64,000 nt of DNA from Thermoclostridium caenicola (lineage in GTDB: Bacteria; Bacillota; Clostridia; DSM-8532), in NCBI RefSeq assembly GCF_900142095.1, contig NZ_FQZP01000002.1:1-64000 (forward strand). The letters are read 5' to 3'. How positions within the stretch are numbered: the stretch's first letter is position 1; every line of letters starts with the position of its first letter. This document shows, in pieces, positions 24,648 through 33,467 of the stretch. Under the pieces are notes generated by a model. It was given only the letters and a program-made list of their open reading frames with translations, was not told where the DNA came from and did no database searches. A program made the position numbers and the translations under genes.

Positions 24648-25349
24648 TCAGCCGCCTTCGTCGAGCGCACGCTCCAACGCCGGTATGTCCAGGAGCCGGA
24701 TGGATGAAAGATGATAGTCGATGAGCCCTTCCTCCTTCATCCTGGCCAGTTCCCGCGACATGGAGGGCCTGGAGACATTCAGAAAATCGGCCAGTTGGTT
24801 GCGGTTCATGCTGAGCGTAAAGGTGGCGTGCCCCTCCCTCCGGTATTGATCGAGGAAAAAGGCACAGAGCTTGCCGCGCATGCTCTTGATGGTCAGGATC
24901 TCAAGCCGTTTGTTCAGCATCAGTGCGCGGTTGGACACGATTCGAAGCATGTTCCGGATAATGGCCCGGTGCCAGGGGCACAAGCGCTGGCACTCGCCAA
25001 TGATTTTCTCCCTGGGGATGAAAAGCGCCACGGCATCCTCCATGGCCTGTACCGTTGCCGGCCAGACCGATTGATCCGAAAAGGCGATGATCTCACCGAA
25101 CATATCCCCGGGTTTGAGCATGTGAAGGACGATCCTGCTACCGGAAGGAGACTCCTTGCTCACAGACGCCTCCCCTTTCAGCAGGAGGCCAATGCCGGTA
25201 AAAGGCTCTCCCGCAAGGGTAATCAGGTCGTTCTTCCTGTATTGCCTGACAAGGGGATCGAGGCAATGGAGCATCCCTTCTATTTCTTCCGGTTTAATCC
25301 CCCTGAACAGGACCGAACGGCTGATGACAGCCAGATAATTCCTCAGCAA
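24648..25349 (-). CDS. Crp/Fnr family transcription regulator
   Basis: 233 residues. A cyclic-nucleotide-binding-type beta roll occupies about 15-130 (GLLLKGEASV and LKPGDMFGEI), followed by a helix-turn-helix (LSMNRNQLADFLNVSRPSMSRELARMKEEGLI near 180-210). There is no Fnr-type N-terminal cysteine cluster. Many clostridial regulators of this subgroup control redox or nitrosative stress genes such as hybrid-cluster proteins; the DUF1858/DUF438 genes nearby would suit that, but no link is shown. The start is TTG with AGGGGG seven bases upstream. Confidence 0.88.
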   Translation of the reverse strand: MLRNYLAVISRSVLFRGIKPEEIEGMLHCLDPLVRQYRKNDLITLAGEPFTGIGLLLKGEASVSKESPSGSRIVLHMLKPGDMFGEIIAFSDQSVWPATVQAMEDAVALFIPREKIIGECQRLCPWHRAIIRNMLRIVSNRALMLNKRLEILTIKSMRGKLCAFFLDQYRREGHATFTLSMNRNQLADFLNVSRPSMSRELARMKEEGLIDYHLSSIRLLDIPALERALDEGG

Positions 25350-25402
25350 GGTTTAACCCCCTTCATGTTTCTATAGATCCGCATACCGGCATTGAAGGCA
25401 TC

Positions 25403-25858
25403 TCAGGCCTGTCCGTCGGAACGACTGTTTTCATCCACACTGCAATCCCGGCAGTACCCAAACAGCTCCAGCCTGTGGCCGGTGATGCTGAAATCAAACT
25501 GTTCTTCCAGCCTGCTGGCATAATCATGGAAGGGACAGCCTGTCACAGGGATGATTTTCCTGCATCTGATGCAGACCAGATGGTGCTTGTGTCCTTCCTG
25601 CCTGATTTCATACAGGCTCCTGTTATTATCGGTAAAATCGGTCTTGGAGATGATATTCTTTTCCACCAGCACATCCAGCGCACGGTAAACCGTGGACAGG
25701 CTGATGGAGATGCCCTTGTCCTTCAGCGCCAGGTAAAGCCTCTCTGCCGAAACGGGTTCACCAAAGCCCTCAAGGGCTTCCAGTATGGACTGCCGATGGT
25801 TTGTGCTGCGCAGGTTTTCCTTTTTCAGCAGCTTTCTGTACCGGTTGCTTTCCGCCAA
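25403..25858 (-). CDS. zur: Fur-family metal regulator, probably Zur
   Basis: 151 residues: winged-helix DNA-binding half (RQSILEALEGFGEPVSAERLY, then the recognition segment SLSTVYRALDVLVE near 55-68). The dimer half carries metal sites HKHHLVCIRCRK and structural-zinc cysteines CIRC and CRDC. It is the last gene after znuA-znuC-znuB on the same strand, which makes a zinc sensor far more likely than Fur or PerR. The start is TTG with AAGGTG seven bases upstream. It presumably represses its own operon; the promoter at 28499-28527 is the expected target. Confidence 0.85.
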   Translation of the reverse strand: MAESNRYRKLLKKENLRSTNHRQSILEALEGFGEPVSAERLYLALKDKGISISLSTVYRALDVLVEKNIISKTDFTDNNRSLYEIRQEGHKHHLVCIRCRKIIPVTGCPFHDYASRLEEQFDFSITGHRLELFGYCRDCSVDENSRSDGQA

Positions 25859-25897
25859 AGCCTTTCACCTTCATTTAAACGATAAATCCCCCTGCGG

Positions 25898-26755
25898 CTA
25901 TGCCGACCGACGCCGTGCAAGAAGCGTCAGCAGGAAGATAACGGCTGTAATGAGCACAATGGTCGCCCCGGAAGCCGTTTCAGTATAATAGGAAGCGATC
26001 AAGCCCGAAACGCCTGAAAACAGGGATATGGCAACGGCTATCAGGTGATACTGCCTCTGGTTGCGTGCCAGATTGCGGGCAGCCGCAGCCGGGAGCACCA
26101 GGAAGGAGTTGATAACCAAAAGGCCAATCCAGGACATGGACACGGTGACCAGCACGGCTATGGCCATGCTGAACAGGGTTTCCAGCCAGAAGGTGCGCAC
26201 CCCCCTGCTCCTGGCAAGCACCGGGTTGATGCTGGCAAAGAGCAGTCTGTTGAAGAAAAAGTACCAGTAGATCAGGACGAGCACCAGGATGACGGCGATG
26301 ATCCCGATCTCGGAAGGGGTGATGCTCAGGATGCTTCCCACCAGGTAGGAATTGAGCTTGGCGAAGCTCTTCCCGCCCAAAGTGGCCAGGAAAATGCCCG
26401 CCGCCACCGCAAAGGACGAGAAAACGCCGATGATGGTGTCACTGGACATCCTGGTCTTGTGATGGACCACCGATATGCCTACCGAAAAAACAAGGGAAAA
26501 AGCAACAGCCGACCACATGGGCTGCAGAAAACCTGCAAGCCCGCCTATGACGATCCCGGTAAAGGCACCGTGACCTAAGGCATCCGAAAAGAAGGCCATC
26601 TGGTTGTTGACGATCATGGTTCCCAGGGTACCAAAGATGGGAGCCAAAAGGATAATGGCCAGCAAGGCGTTCTTCATAAAGAGCATCCTGCCGGGCTCAG
26701 CCCATTCAAAGGGCAGCAGATCCACCAGGTTGTACCAAAGTTCCATAGCTATCAC
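25898..26755 (-). CDS. znuB: Zinc/manganese ABC transporter permease
   Basis: 285-residue ABC-3 family membrane subunit of a zinc (or manganese) importer with about eight helices; ALGHGAFTGIVIGGL near 75-90 is the family's conserved segment. It overlaps the end of the ATPase gene by four bases (GTGA-type overlap). The order binding protein, ATPase, permease, zur within one operon supports zinc as substrate. Confidence 0.9.
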   Translation of the reverse strand: MIAMELWYNLVDLLPFEWAEPGRMLFMKNALLAIILLAPIFGTLGTMIVNNQMAFFSDALGHGAFTGIVIGGLAGFLQPMWSAVAFSLVFSVGISVVHHKTRMSSDTIIGVFSSFAVAAGIFLATLGGKSFAKLNSYLVGSILSITPSEIGIIAVILVLVLIYWYFFFNRLLFASINPVLARSRGVRTFWLETLFSMAIAVLVTVSMSWIGLLVINSFLVLPAAAARNLARNQRQYHLIAVAISLFSGVSGLIASYYTETASGATIVLITAVIFLLTLLARRRSA

Positions 26756-27516
26756 GACATCCCCGCAAAAATCTTTCTGAAACTCTCACTCGCCATAACC
26801 TCCCGGGGCGTGCCGCTGGCCAGCACCGTACGGTTCAGCAGAACAAGCCTGTCCGCATGGCGCGCCACCAGGTCGAGATCATGGGAAACCATGATGATGG
26901 AGAGGTCATAGTCCTTTCTGATATCCGAAAGCAGGTTGTAGAACATTTCCAGTCCGTTCTGGTCAATCCCGGATACCGGTTCATCCAGAAGGAGCAGCTC
27001 CGGAACAGGCTCCAGCGCAAGGGCCACCAGGACCCTCTGGAGCTCGCCTCCGGAAAGGGCGCCCAGCCTTTTGTCCAATAAATGATCCGCCTGAGCCCGG
27101 GAAAGACATTCTTTGGCCTTGTGCCTGACCTTGTCCGGAATCCTGAGCCACGCCGGGCTTTTGCTGCAGCAAACGGCATAGAGATCCAGCACACTGGTCG
27201 GACTGGTGGCATCCAGGTTCAGGTGCTGCGGCACATAGCCGATGATCGGCCGTTCCTTTCTCACGCCGCTGCTTCTCAGGAACTTCAGGGAACCGGTATG
27301 CCTGACTTCTCCCAGGATGGCTTTCAGCAGCGTGCTCTTCCCTGCTCCATTGGGGCCGATGATGGCCGTGAGCTCGCCGCAGTGGACGTGGAGGTTGACA
27401 TCGCTCAGGATGGTGTCACTGCCAATGGTCACCCCCAGATTTTCAATCCGTGTGCAGCACAGGCCGCAGTTGGGCCCTTCGCATGCTCTTGTCACATTAA
27501 TGCCATGATGGTTCAT
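26752..27516 (-). CDS. znuC: Zinc/manganese ABC transporter ATPase
   Basis: 254 residues with an intact nucleotide-binding site: Walker A GPNGAGKST near 58-66, Q-loop in VPQHLN, signature LSGGELQRV near 157, Walker B LLLLDEPVSGID and H-loop VSHD. The N-terminus carries an unusual cysteine-rich leader before the usual start (CEGPNCGLCC, residues 13-22), which could bind metal. It overlaps the binding protein gene by four bases. The leader is part of the reading frame, although the true start could be internal, near residue 28. Confidence 0.9.
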   Translation of the reverse strand: MNHHGINVTRACEGPNCGLCCTRIENLGVTIGSDTILSDVNLHVHCGELTAIIGPNGAGKSTLLKAILGEVRHTGSLKFLRSSGVRKERPIIGYVPQHLNLDATSPTSVLDLYAVCCSKSPAWLRIPDKVRHKAKECLSRAQADHLLDKRLGALSGGELQRVLVALALEPVPELLLLDEPVSGIDQNGLEMFYNLLSDIRKDYDLSIIMVSHDLDLVARHADRLVLLNRTVLASGTPREVMASESFRKIFAGMS

Positions 27517-28454
27517 TTCAACGCCTCGATCAAAGTTTGCAGATTTTTTTCCATGGTTTCCACATAGCTGTCCGGGTCGGCTTCCTTCGGCCCGGTGACC
27601 AACGGATCCAAAAAGTACACCTTGGCACCCGTTTCGGAAGCTATGGTCTCGGCCGCTCTCGCCGAGTATTGGGGCTCGGCAAATATGGCTTTGACACCGA
27701 GCGTTTTTATGATATCAATGGTCTCTCTGAGTTCCGCGGCGCTGGGTTCGGTGCCCGGTTCCCGCTCGATGACCGCAACGATATTCAGGCCGAACTCCTG
27801 CGCAAAATAGGGAAAAGCCTCATGGAAGGTCACAATATCCCTTGACCGGATATCTTTCAGCGCCTCGTGCATCCTTTCCTTCTGCGCTTCCAGCTTGCTC
27901 CTGAATGCCTCTGCGTTGCGCCTGTAGGCTTCCGCATGGGCCGGATCCGCTTCCGCCAGGGCTTCTTCGATATTTTCAACCTGTCGGATAGCGTTTGAGA
28001 TGCTCACCCAGACATGGGGATTGGCCTCCCCGGTGTGTTCATCCATGATGAGCGGAATATCCTTCGCCGCCTCCACAACCGGCAGATCGGGATAAACATC
28101 CCGAATCTGATCCACAAAGGTTTCCATACCTGCGCCGTTTATCAGGAACAGGTCGGCATTCTCCAGCGTCTTCATATCTGCCGGGCTGAGCTCATAATCA
28201 TGGAGACAGCCCGACTGGGGTTCGGTCATATTGGTGACGCGCACCCCCGGTATCCCCCCTGCCACGTTGATGGTCAGCACGTAGATGGGATAGAACGAGG
28301 TCACGATATGAAAATCGTCGCCCGTATCGCCAGTCAAAGCCTTACCAGCGGTACTGCCCGGGTCGGACGTGATATCCGATTTATTGGAAGCTCCGCACGC
28401 GGTCAAAAGCAAAATGCACAGGAGCAGGCCCAGAAAGGCCTTTATGGATTTCAA
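27513..28454 (-). CDS. znuA: Zinc-binding lipoprotein of the ZnuA family
   Basis: 313 residues: signal peptide and lipobox LLTAC near 16-20, then the cluster A-I metal-binding protein fold. Candidate zinc ligands are His in GCLHDYEL, His in NPHVWVS, His in TFHEAFPYF and the acidic residue in FLDPL. No histidine-rich loop of the ZnuA type is present; the linker at about 25-45 is Ser/Thr/Gly-rich instead. Start is TTG with AGGAGG seven bases upstream; a closer ATG is out of frame. First gene of the zinc operon, with a good promoter at 28499-28527. Confidence 0.9.
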   Translation of the reverse strand: MKSIKAFLGLLLCILLLTACGASNKSDITSDPGSTAGKALTGDTGDDFHIVTSFYPIYVLTINVAGGIPGVRVTNMTEPQSGCLHDYELSPADMKTLENADLFLINGAGMETFVDQIRDVYPDLPVVEAAKDIPLIMDEHTGEANPHVWVSISNAIRQVENIEEALAEADPAHAEAYRRNAEAFRSKLEAQKERMHEALKDIRSRDIVTFHEAFPYFAQEFGLNIVAVIEREPGTEPSAAELRETIDIIKTLGVKAIFAEPQYSARAAETIASETGAKVYFLDPLVTGPKEADPDSYVETMEKNLQTLIEALK

Positions 28455-28498
28455 GCATATTCCTCCTTAATGGGATTGATTCGCATTTGCATGTAGTA

Positions 28499-28527
28499 AT
28501 TGTACACCAGTATTATGGCATCTTCAA
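28499..28527 (-). promoter_or_regulatory. Promoter of the znuA-znuC-znuB-zur operon
   Basis: On the minus strand TTGAAG (complement of 28522-28527), 17-bp spacer, TACAAT (complement of 28499-28504). An 8-bp palindrome GCATTTGC-like sequence lies at about 28484-28491, downstream of the -10, and may be part of a Zur site, but it does not match the usual Firmicute Zur box well. Confidence 0.6.
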
Positions 28528-28551
28528 CCCCGGATCTATACGGTGCAATAT

Positions 28552-28609
28552 GGCAGAAAAACAGCATCAGGCCGGCAGCCGCTTCATGACAGAAGCTCGG
28601 CTGCCGGCC
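28552..28609 (-). terminator. Strong hairpin terminator after the DUF438/DUF1858 genes
   Basis: On the minus strand GGCCGGCAGCCG (complement of 28598-28609) pairs perfectly with CGGCTGCCGGCC (complement of 28570-28581), with further inner pairing, followed after a few bases by TTTTT. Confidence 0.8.
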
Positions 28610-28655
28610 CGATAGTTATTGGCAACGGCTTGTTGAAAGCCGCATGCATCAATGA

Positions 28656-28847
28656 TTAAAGCTCATTGTTAAGCCTGGCCAGCATCTCATCGATATCGAG
28701 GCCATGAACTTCCGCTGCTTCCTCCAATGTCTCGGCCTGCGAAGCGGGGCAGCTGACGCAGCCCAAACCCATGCCGATCAGGATTCGCGCAGCTTCGGGG
28801 TTCTGCCTGATAACTTCCCCGATGGTCATATCCTTGGTCGCTTTCAT
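28656..28847 (-). CDS. DUF1858 protein
   Basis: A 63-residue DUF1858 domain: DMTIGEVIRQNPEAARILIGMGLGCVSCPASQAETLEEAA, with the conserved GC..CP pair (CVSCP). The cysteines may bind a metal or redox partner; the domain is often next to hybrid-cluster proteins or DUF438 proteins in anaerobes. The ATG at 28847 has GGAGG eight bases upstream. Longer in-frame starts run back into the DUF438 gene and are not credible. It follows that gene by 100 bases on the same strand. Confidence 0.9.
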   Translation of the reverse strand: MKATKDMTIGEVIRQNPEAARILIGMGLGCVSCPASQAETLEEAAEVHGLDIDEMLARLNNEL

Positions 28848-28947
28848 CGCTCGTTCCTCCTTTTTTATAGTATCATACATGAATCCCAGGGTTCTTGCAA
28901 ATGTCAGGTTATCCCACAACTTGATGCAAACGTCGCTCACCTTGCTC

Positions 28948-30183
28948 TTATTCGGAAAGAAGCCTTTTCTCACCCTCAAGTTCCTGGATGGGTTTGATGT
29001 TCTGGGTGATCTCCGCAACGCCCAGGTACTCGCCTTTGTCATTTCTTACAGCGTAATACCGGATGTAAGCCGTCACCTTATCGCCCATCCTGATCCAGAA
29101 GTCCTCGTGATCCTTTTTGCCGCTCTTAAAGTCCTCAACGATCTTCTCAACGATATGAACGCTGCCGGGTGGATGGCAGTTCTGAACCTTCCGTCCGATA
29201 ACACTCCTGGGTCGGGCGAAGATGCGTTCCTTACCCTGGGTAAAATAGCGCACCGTGTCGTCCTTGCCCACAAAGGTGATATCAAAGGGAAGGGTGTTCA
29301 GCAGGGCGTTAATCTCTTCATGGGTCATGGCACCTGCGTCAAACCGGACGATATTCTCTGCCGGTTCCCCCTCCTCTTTGGCCTGCTGCACCGGATCGAC
29401 CCGCTCAGGTTTCCACGGCGTGTCCGGCTGGATCAGGCAATAACCGATTTCATCGCTGTCCTCCAGGATCTTCTTCCACTCATCCTCCGAAAGGGTATCC
29501 ATGGCCATGGGGAACAGGATATTCTCTTCCTTGAAGATCATCTCCCTGACCTTGCCGATGGCTTCGTCGGCCTTTTGGAGCAAGGTTTCCCGGCTGCCGT
29601 CATAGTTTTCCAGCAACCGTATGGTTTCCTTGATGGCAGCACGGATCTCATCGTCCACACCCCACATAACCTTGGGCGGCGCGGTTATCCCATACTTCTC
29701 CAGGTAGGGGAAGAGCAGGTTCTCCTTTCTGGCATAGTGCTTGCCCACCTCAAGCAATTGCCTGAAGCCTTCCAGGAGCCTTCCGGCAGCGTCCCGGTCA
29801 TCGGCAGTCCGAAGCTTTGCCAGAAGCGGCTCCAGCTTTCCTTCGATCAGCTTCTCTATTTCCCTGTTCTCCTGCTTGAATATCTGGACGGGATGTCCTG
29901 CCGCCTTAACCGCTTCCGGTTCCCTGTGGATATCCTCAATGGAACCCCTGAACACCGATGCGTGGACATCGCAAAGCCTCTGAACCTCGGTTACGGGCAT
30001 ACCCTCCATGATGAGGGCCTGCTCCATCTCGGCTATCTCACTGGATGAAACACCCTTGATCAGCTCTTCAAACCTGGGTTTTACCTCCTCCACGGTCTTA
30101 CCGTTGTGGAGTTCCTTAATAATTTCCTTCAGCACCTTCTGCCTGTATTCGCGGTTATTGATCATTTCGCTCAATCGTACCAC
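28948..30183 (-). CDS. DUF438/hemerythrin/PAS sensor protein
   Basis: 411 residues in three parts: DUF438 at about 1-75 (with an embedded DUF1858-like EVKPRFEELIKGVS segment), a hemerythrin HHE domain at about 90-235 (His in GHPVQIFKQEN, GKHYARKENLLFPYLEK, with E-E-N-ILFP in the last helix), and a C-terminal PAS domain at about 285-395 (DITFVGKDDTVRYFTQGKERIF, including HPPGSVHIVEKIV). Hemerythrin-like domains bind di-iron, so an oxygen, nitric oxide or iron sensing or repair role is likely. Starts with GTG just after GGGG; a TTG at 30174 has better spacing. Confidence 0.88.
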   Translation of the reverse strand: MVRLSEMINNREYRQKVLKEIIKELHNGKTVEEVKPRFEELIKGVSSSEIAEMEQALIMEGMPVTEVQRLCDVHASVFRGSIEDIHREPEAVKAAGHPVQIFKQENREIEKLIEGKLEPLLAKLRTADDRDAAGRLLEGFRQLLEVGKHYARKENLLFPYLEKYGITAPPKVMWGVDDEIRAAIKETIRLLENYDGSRETLLQKADEAIGKVREMIFKEENILFPMAMDTLSEDEWKKILEDSDEIGYCLIQPDTPWKPERVDPVQQAKEEGEPAENIVRFDAGAMTHEEINALLNTLPFDITFVGKDDTVRYFTQGKERIFARPRSVIGRKVQNCHPPGSVHIVEKIVEDFKSGKKDHEDFWIRMGDKVTAYIRYYAVRNDKGEYLGVAEITQNIKPIQELEGEKRLLSE

Positions 30184-30261
30184 CCCCTGTATTGTTCACT
30201 TTTTTAAAGGTTTTTATGAATCATTTCCGGTTTCAGTCATGCATGGAAGGGATGCTGTTTT

Positions 30262-30289
30262 TTTAAAAAAGACCGGCCCGGGGCCGGTC
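30262..30289 (-). terminator. Terminator after the cysteine-rich mini-gene
   Basis: A GACCGGCC...GGCCGGTC stem (30271-30289) is followed on the minus strand by six T. It lies 35 bases past the stop of the 49-residue gene at 30324-30473, supporting that gene as the end of a transcript. Confidence 0.85.
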
Positions 30290-30323
30290 TCATGCAATTC
30301 ATGGTGAGCGTCAGCATCTTCGT

Positions 30324-30473
30324 CTAAATGACCAGAAACAGCAATGCAAGAGCAAGCCATCTATTCCGGTTGCAATGGCACCTGGAGCAGGATTCGCGGC
30401 ATTTCTTGCAGCGGCAGTAACGCTCTCGCCGACAATAAAGCTCACGCTGTTTTCTGCTTACTTCATCACACAC
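30324..30473 (-). CDS. Putative 49-residue cysteine-rich, C-terminally anchored protein
   Basis: Open frame from a GTG at 30473 (AAGGGGTG five bases upstream) to TAG at 30324-30326. Eight of the first 34 residues are cysteine, in a dense basic block (YCRRERYCRCKKCRESC then SRCHC). A short hydrophobic C-terminus (WLALALLFLVI) could anchor it in the membrane. It sits 70 bases after the CopZ-like gene on the same strand and 35 bases before a strong terminator. The cysteine spacing suggests a metal-binding (copper, zinc or iron-sulfur) role next to a copper chaperone. I know no named family for it. It falls in an otherwise empty 360-base gap. Confidence 0.55.
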   Translation of the reverse strand: MCDEVSRKQRELYCRRERYCRCKKCRESCSRCHCNRNRWLALALLFLVI

Positions 30474-30543
30474 AACAGCACCCCTTAAATAACTTGTCCT
30501 GGTACATGCTATTCATAAGACCGGAATAGTGTTCTGAAGCGCA

Positions 30544-30753
30544 TCACACCACGTCATACCCCTGATCTTCGATGGCTTCCCTGATCTGTTCGAGGGAAAC
30601 TATTCCATTGTCGAAAACCACTGTTACCGATTTGCCCTTCAGGTCAACCGTAACGCTCTCAACACCGGGCAAGCCGCCTACCGCTTTCCTGACAGCATTT
30701 TCGCAATGGCTGCAGGACATGCCCTCGACCTTTATCGCTCTCGTTTCCATCAT
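30544..30753 (-). CDS. Heavy-metal-associated domain protein, CopZ-like copper chaperone
   Basis: 69 residues forming one HMA domain with the metal motif GMSCSHC near residue 11-17 and the usual beta-alpha-beta ends (AVRKAVGGLPGVESVTVDL and IREAIEDQGYDVV). Such proteins carry Cu(I) to P-type ATPases or regulators; no copper ATPase is in this window. The ATGATG at 30753 lies eight bases from GGGAGG; an upstream in-frame start at 30774 would include that sequence. Probably cotranscribed with the cysteine-rich mini-gene. Confidence 0.9.
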   Translation of the reverse strand: MMETRAIKVEGMSCSHCENAVRKAVGGLPGVESVTVDLKGKSVTVVFDNGIVSLEQIREAIEDQGYDVV

Positions 30754-31009
30754 CAAGCATACCTCCCTTATCATCAGCGGGCGACAACCTCCGGTCGCTC
30801 CGCCTGGAAAATCCTGTTTCTATGTTATATAGCCTTAAAGCCAGGCAGATTATTCATCTGCAACAATAATTTTTCTTTTGAAATCATTATAGCACGCTGA
30901 CCTGTCCATGTCGGTAGCCTCGGTTACATAATTCTGCCACTTACAGGGCTTCGTACGCATAAGCCGGGGACAATCAACGAAAGATAAGGAGGAAAAAGGA
31001 GGGGAAGCC

Positions 31010-32861: not shown

Positions 32862-32888
32862 AGGGAGCCCGTAAAACAGTACCCGGAT

Positions 32889-32994
32889 GTCATTACGAGC
32901 GGAACGCAGTGAAGCGCGGCAATCTCCTAATACTTCAAAGGCGACCATGGGAGTGATTGAGATTGCTTCGTCGGCTATACCTCCTCGCAATGAC
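32889..32994. repeat. 106-bp palindromic repeat, copy 1
   Basis: Ends GTCATTACGAG and CTCGCAATGAC are inverted repeats, with inner GGCAATCTC and GAGATTGC facing each other. Nearly identical (two or three differences) to 33297-33402. Confidence 0.85.
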
Positions 32995-33028
32995 GTGGTG
33001 GTACGGCTTGCGGAGTATATCCATAGGT

Positions 33029-33284: not shown

Positions 33285-33296
33285 CCTGCACCAGGT

Positions 33297-33402
33297 ATCA
33301 TTACGAGCGGAACGCAGTGAAGCGCGGCAATCTCCTAATACTTCAAAGGCGACCATGGGAGTGATTGAGATTGCTTCGTCGGCTATGCCTCCTTGCAATG
33401 AC
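33297..33402. repeat. 106-bp palindromic repeat, copy 2
   Basis: Same sequence and orientation as 32889-32994 with only a few substitutions, 408 bases further on. Ends 66 bases before the polymerase start. Confidence 0.85.
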
Positions 33403-33467
33403 GTGGTGAAGACGGCATAGTGCCGCCCCTCAATGGCGGCAAGAATAAAAAAGGAAGTGTCCATGCT

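Follow-up and report, generated by a model that had tools for sequence, protein, structure and literature searches.

A conserved small cysteine-rich gene beside copper genes in Thermoclostridium caenicola lies within a split hairpin

A copper locus of Thermoclostridium caenicola carries a conserved protein gene of fewer than 50 codons that belongs to no known family. The gene is kept under coding constraint and in a conserved order of neighbours, and its whole transcription unit is located between the two arms of a hairpin that is intact in congeneric genomes without the gene. The window analyzed here is a stretch of 64,000 nucleotides (contig NZ_FQZP01000002.1, positions 1 to 64,000), and the features of the locus are given below in the direction of transcription.

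30544 to 30774, minus strand: CopZ-like HMA metallochaperone, 76 aa (Pfam HMA, E=1.9e-19); copA at the equivalent place in four congeners
30511 to 30527, minus strand: left arm of the ancestral hairpin, TTCCGGTCTTATGAAT; one intact hairpin in G003 and G004
30489 to 30512, minus strand: conserved leader dyad ATAGCATGT-ACCAGG-ACAAGTTAT, RNA hairpin or operator
30481 to 30486, minus strand: Shine-Dalgarno sequence AAGGGG, 7 nt ahead of the GTG; AAAGAGG in relatives
30324 to 30473, minus strand: small ORF, 49 aa, basic Cys-rich protein, GTG start, TAG stop; orthologues in G001 and G002, top-scoring of six frames against G001
30261 to 30290, minus strand: strong intrinsic terminator of the small gene; stem retained with altered sequence in relatives
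30225 to 30239, minus strand: right arm of the ancestral hairpin, TGACTGAAACCGGAA; the small-gene unit lies between the arms
28948 to 30183, minus strand: DUF438-hemerythrin-PAS protein, conserved neighbour downstream of the small gene

The preliminary description had placed a 49-residue ORF at 30324-30473 without giving a strand, and we find it on the minus strand with the product MCDEVSRKQRELYCRRERYCRCKKCRESCSRCHCNRNRWLALALLFLVI. The eight cysteines, described as packed into 34 residues, are indeed located at positions 2, 14, 20, 22, 25, 29, 32 and 34, but the motif proposed for them has to be corrected at its start, as the protein reads Y-C-x4-Y-C instead of Y-C-x5-Y-C and both aromatic residues are phenylalanine in the relatives. 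The expected ribosome binding site is present as AAGGGG 7 nt before the GTG, and the strong terminator predicted after the stop was recovered as the G+C-rich stem AGACCGGCCC-G-GGGCCGGTCT followed by a T-run, which begins 33 nt past the stop and is missing from the output of a simple terminator scan of the window. The assignment directly downstream of a CopZ-like gene holds as well, with the 76-residue HMA protein encoded upstream on the same strand and a gap of 70 nt between both genes. Of the 504 window ORFs with a length of 30-80 aa, only this one has at least eight cysteines. In a simulation of 60 windows (46,548 ORFs) 23 ORFs reached at least eight cysteines, and none had a hydrophobic tail as well. 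The small ORF is unusual on composition alone, which is no proof of a gene.

Syntenic orthologues are present in two of four congeneric genomes (G001 and G002, MAGs labelled Clostridiaceae bacterium DTU059 and AS24abBPME_51) with 54-55% identity and E values of about 1e-11. A six-frame comparison of the window with G001 yielded the best protein similarity for the annotated frame, and no internal stop interrupts it in either species. The members of the family have 49-52 aa, eight cysteines and a conserved CxCxxC; seven of the cysteines are invariant and the eighth has moved to a different position, so that the count of eight is kept. In the DNA alignment the Shine-Dalgarno sequence is conserved and the start (GTG or TTG) is found at one common position, and a 1-nt indel between the window and its relatives directly 5' of this position supports the chosen start. 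A 9-nt indel within the gene is in frame and the reading frame is kept, and the terminators of the orthologues differ in sequence and share the same stem. The synonymous-biased substitutions expected for conserved homologues were found in G001 and G002 with NG86, both for the whole ORF (dN 0.28, dS 0.99; dN/dS about 0.28) and for its N-terminal part (dN 0.15, dS 1.24; ratio 0.12), whereas YN00 (dN 0.41, dS 0.38) gave no signal of dN<dS, given the short sequences. As two of the three small-gene sequences are nearly identical, the comparison is effectively one of two independent sequences. A neutral simulation gave sequences as similar as the observed ones and free of stops in 1.9% of its runs, and the retention of the cysteines has a P of about 0.009. 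We are confident that the small ORF is a real protein gene.

In G003 and G004, which do not carry the small gene, one hairpin (CGGTTTCATGACCGGTTAATGAAACCG in G003) follows copA and precedes the DUF438 gene. In the three carriers the arms of this hairpin are apart and flank the small-gene unit of roughly 0.25 kb. When the unit was inspected for the target duplication and terminal inverted repeats of a mobile element, both edges showed a 5-bp repeat (ATGAA/TGAAT) in G001 and G002, which has decayed in the window, and a partial AGGACAA/TTGTCCT was seen only in these two relatives. The unit occurs as a single copy in each of the carriers (G000, G001 and G002) and therefore is not a multiplying element, unlike a MITE or an IS-derived element, for which further copies would be expected in relatives. 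Since the carriers group together in the protein tree with 84% support, one insertion explains the data, which suggests that the unit was inserted into the hairpin a single time. One loss in G003 and G004 is equally parsimonious on the tree, yet it leaves the split hairpin unexplained. The locus provides an example of a whole small transcription unit arising between two stable neighbours. In a speculative extension, to which we give little credence, leader dyad, Cys-rich membrane peptide and terminator would form a self-contained mini gene cassette that a single event brought into the 3' hairpin and that then turned into a copper component specific to the genus.

The gene order Ku, copper gene, small gene, DUF438/hemerythrin/PAS, DUF1858, znuABC, fur and fnr is conserved, and the neighbour of the small gene is a copper gene in all three carriers (copZ in the case of the window, copA in that of G001 and G002). 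The copA relative of the window's own genome sits elsewhere. The nearest relatives of the window copZ (30544-30774; about 65%) are found in other genera of the family. As this copZ occupies the place where four congeners have copA, it seems that the copper gene was swapped and the small gene stayed. On the downstream side, the DUF438-hemerythrin-PAS, DUF1858, ZnuABC, Fur and Fnr-type genes form a conserved cluster (24648-30183) that looks like a cluster for NO/iron-sulphur and metal stress.

The N-terminal part of the small protein is basic, has CxCxxC spacing and lacks a signal peptide, and the C-terminus is a hydrophobic tail (LALALLFLVI / AVVLLLLFL) of 11-12 residues, which is short for a transmembrane span. 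AlphaFold2 predicts a helix from 37 to 48 at about 76 pLDDT; the mean pLDDT is 54 and the remainder of the model is unreliable. If the positive-inside rule is applied to the basic N-terminal part, the cysteines are expected on the cytoplasmic side and in reduced form, as there is no export signal. The small gene forms its own short unit of leader, Shine-Dalgarno sequence, ORF and terminator, and was probably placed in the 3' hairpin of a copper gene (copA or copZ) in the ancestor of three of the five sampled congeners. The protein would stay in the reducing cytoplasm and lean on the inner membrane via the hydrophobic helix of 11-12 residues, and its eight cysteines could bind a soft metal as free thiolates. 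This metal would probably be Cu(I), a specificity read from the neighbourhood alone, because a Cu(I) chaperone or a Cu P-type ATPase is encoded next to the small gene in all three carriers, and the protein may act as a buffer near the CopA/CopZ export route. The most likely role is thus that of a putative cytoplasmic buffer that leans on the membrane and binds metal by its thiols close to the Cu(I) route, but we propose it only tentatively, as no metal-binding family matches and G003 and G004 do without the gene despite having the same copA.

Bacterial metallothioneins such as SmtA/BmtA and MymT have about 50 residues and eight or so cysteines including CxC and CxxC. The small protein resembles them in size, in its cysteine content with these motifs and in the probable cytoplasmic binding of metal by thiols, but it matches no metallothionein family model in Pfam or NCBIfam, is strongly basic and has the hydrophobic C-terminal tail. 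If metal binding is true, a tail-bearing and strongly basic type joins the few known bacterial metallothionein-like proteins. The small protein is encoded next to a CopZ/HMA metallochaperone and, as proposed, would share Cu(I)-thiolate chemistry with this class, whereas an HMA domain match and an MxCxxC motif are absent.

The 44-nt leader is more conserved than the third codon positions of the gene, with 39/44 identical nucleotides versus 20/29. Upstream of the Shine-Dalgarno sequence all carriers have the imperfect dyad ATAGCATGT-ACYAGG-ACAAGTTAT, which may act as an operator or fold into an RNA hairpin. The predicted fold of the leader is no better than that of shuffled sequences (z -0.8), and it has no Rfam match. 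A search for a regulon found one copy of the motif without mismatch in the window's genome, as in G001 and G002, and no second copy within 3 mismatches; partial matches elsewhere are mostly coding or lie before unrelated genes, for example ahead of a GlpP-like gene or in the rplJ-rplL region. A sporulation sigma promoter was also considered, but the spacing was not convincing when inspected by eye.

The small protein might instead serve another stress or stage, either nitrosative or iron-sulphur damage together with DUF438-hemerythrin and DUF1858 or as a spore or envelope peptide, with the copper neighbours being incidental. The downstream cluster with DUF438-hemerythrin-PAS, DUF1858, znuABC, fur and fnr is conserved in the genus, in line with such a role, which we regard as unlikely though worth considering; the terminator of the small gene separates it from this cluster, the cluster is intact in G003, a genome without the gene, and a regulon-wide leader motif is lacking. 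A regulatory upstream peptide, whose translation would change with metal or cysteine/arginine supply and so decide whether transcription passes the terminator and enters the DUF438-hemerythrin gene, appears rather improbable to us. There is a precedent in CruR (DUF2946), a copper-responsive upstream ORF encoding a copper-sensing nascent peptide (PMC9426467), and the small ORF is likewise short, contains cysteines (it is rich in Cys and Arg) and is located at a copper locus, with a conserved leader dyad and a terminator between it and the DUF438 gene. However, neither a DUF2946 match (Pfam/NCBIfam) nor the C-terminal RAPP arrest motif is present, the gene lies downstream of the copper genes instead of heading the operon, its own intrinsic terminator starts 33 nt after the stop codon, no antiterminator was seen, and two congeners do without the ORF.

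It is also conceivable, but very improbable, that the unit is no functional protein gene but an inserted DNA element with an accidental ORF that was kept by short divergence. The split hairpin and the flanking 5-bp repeat resemble the traces of an insertion, the neutral simulation of identity without a stop gave a P of about 0.02 and the dN/dS of YN00 is not below 1. Against this stand the conserved start position, Shine-Dalgarno sequence, in-frame indel, stop, terminator and cysteine count, the single copy per genome and the kept cysteines (P about 0.009).

The small gene is restricted to the genus, with three carriers, all related anaerobic clostridia, among five sampled congeners so far. 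GTDB-220 contigs contained two loci, both in the MAGs already known as carriers, and searches of 32 genomes of the family, 391 of the class, GTDB-220 contigs, viral contigs and plasmids found no further credible relatives. Profile matches in the 391 class genomes (E 5e-5 to 0.01) did not extend the family, as those read back were fragments in other frames without a Cys-rich small ORF. The spread of comparable ORFs that had been expected across clostridial HMA loci was not seen beside the other HMA genes fetched from the family. Scans of the three members against Pfam and NCBIfam gave no family up to E=10, and PHROGs and PDB gave no match. Therefore, the protein represents an orphan family, undescribed as first noted within the libraries searched (Pfam, NCBIfam, PHROGs and PDB), and literature searches found no description of it. 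A phage or plasmid origin was rejected after negative results with PHROGs, viral contigs and plasmids. The narrow spread limits the wider importance of the gene.

As a separate observation, the stretch between the two LigD genes of the window, one ligase-type and one polymerase-type, contains a 118-nt direct repeat (32883-33000 and 33291-33408, 96% identical), and G001 seems to have a related repeat-like sequence at the equivalent spot.
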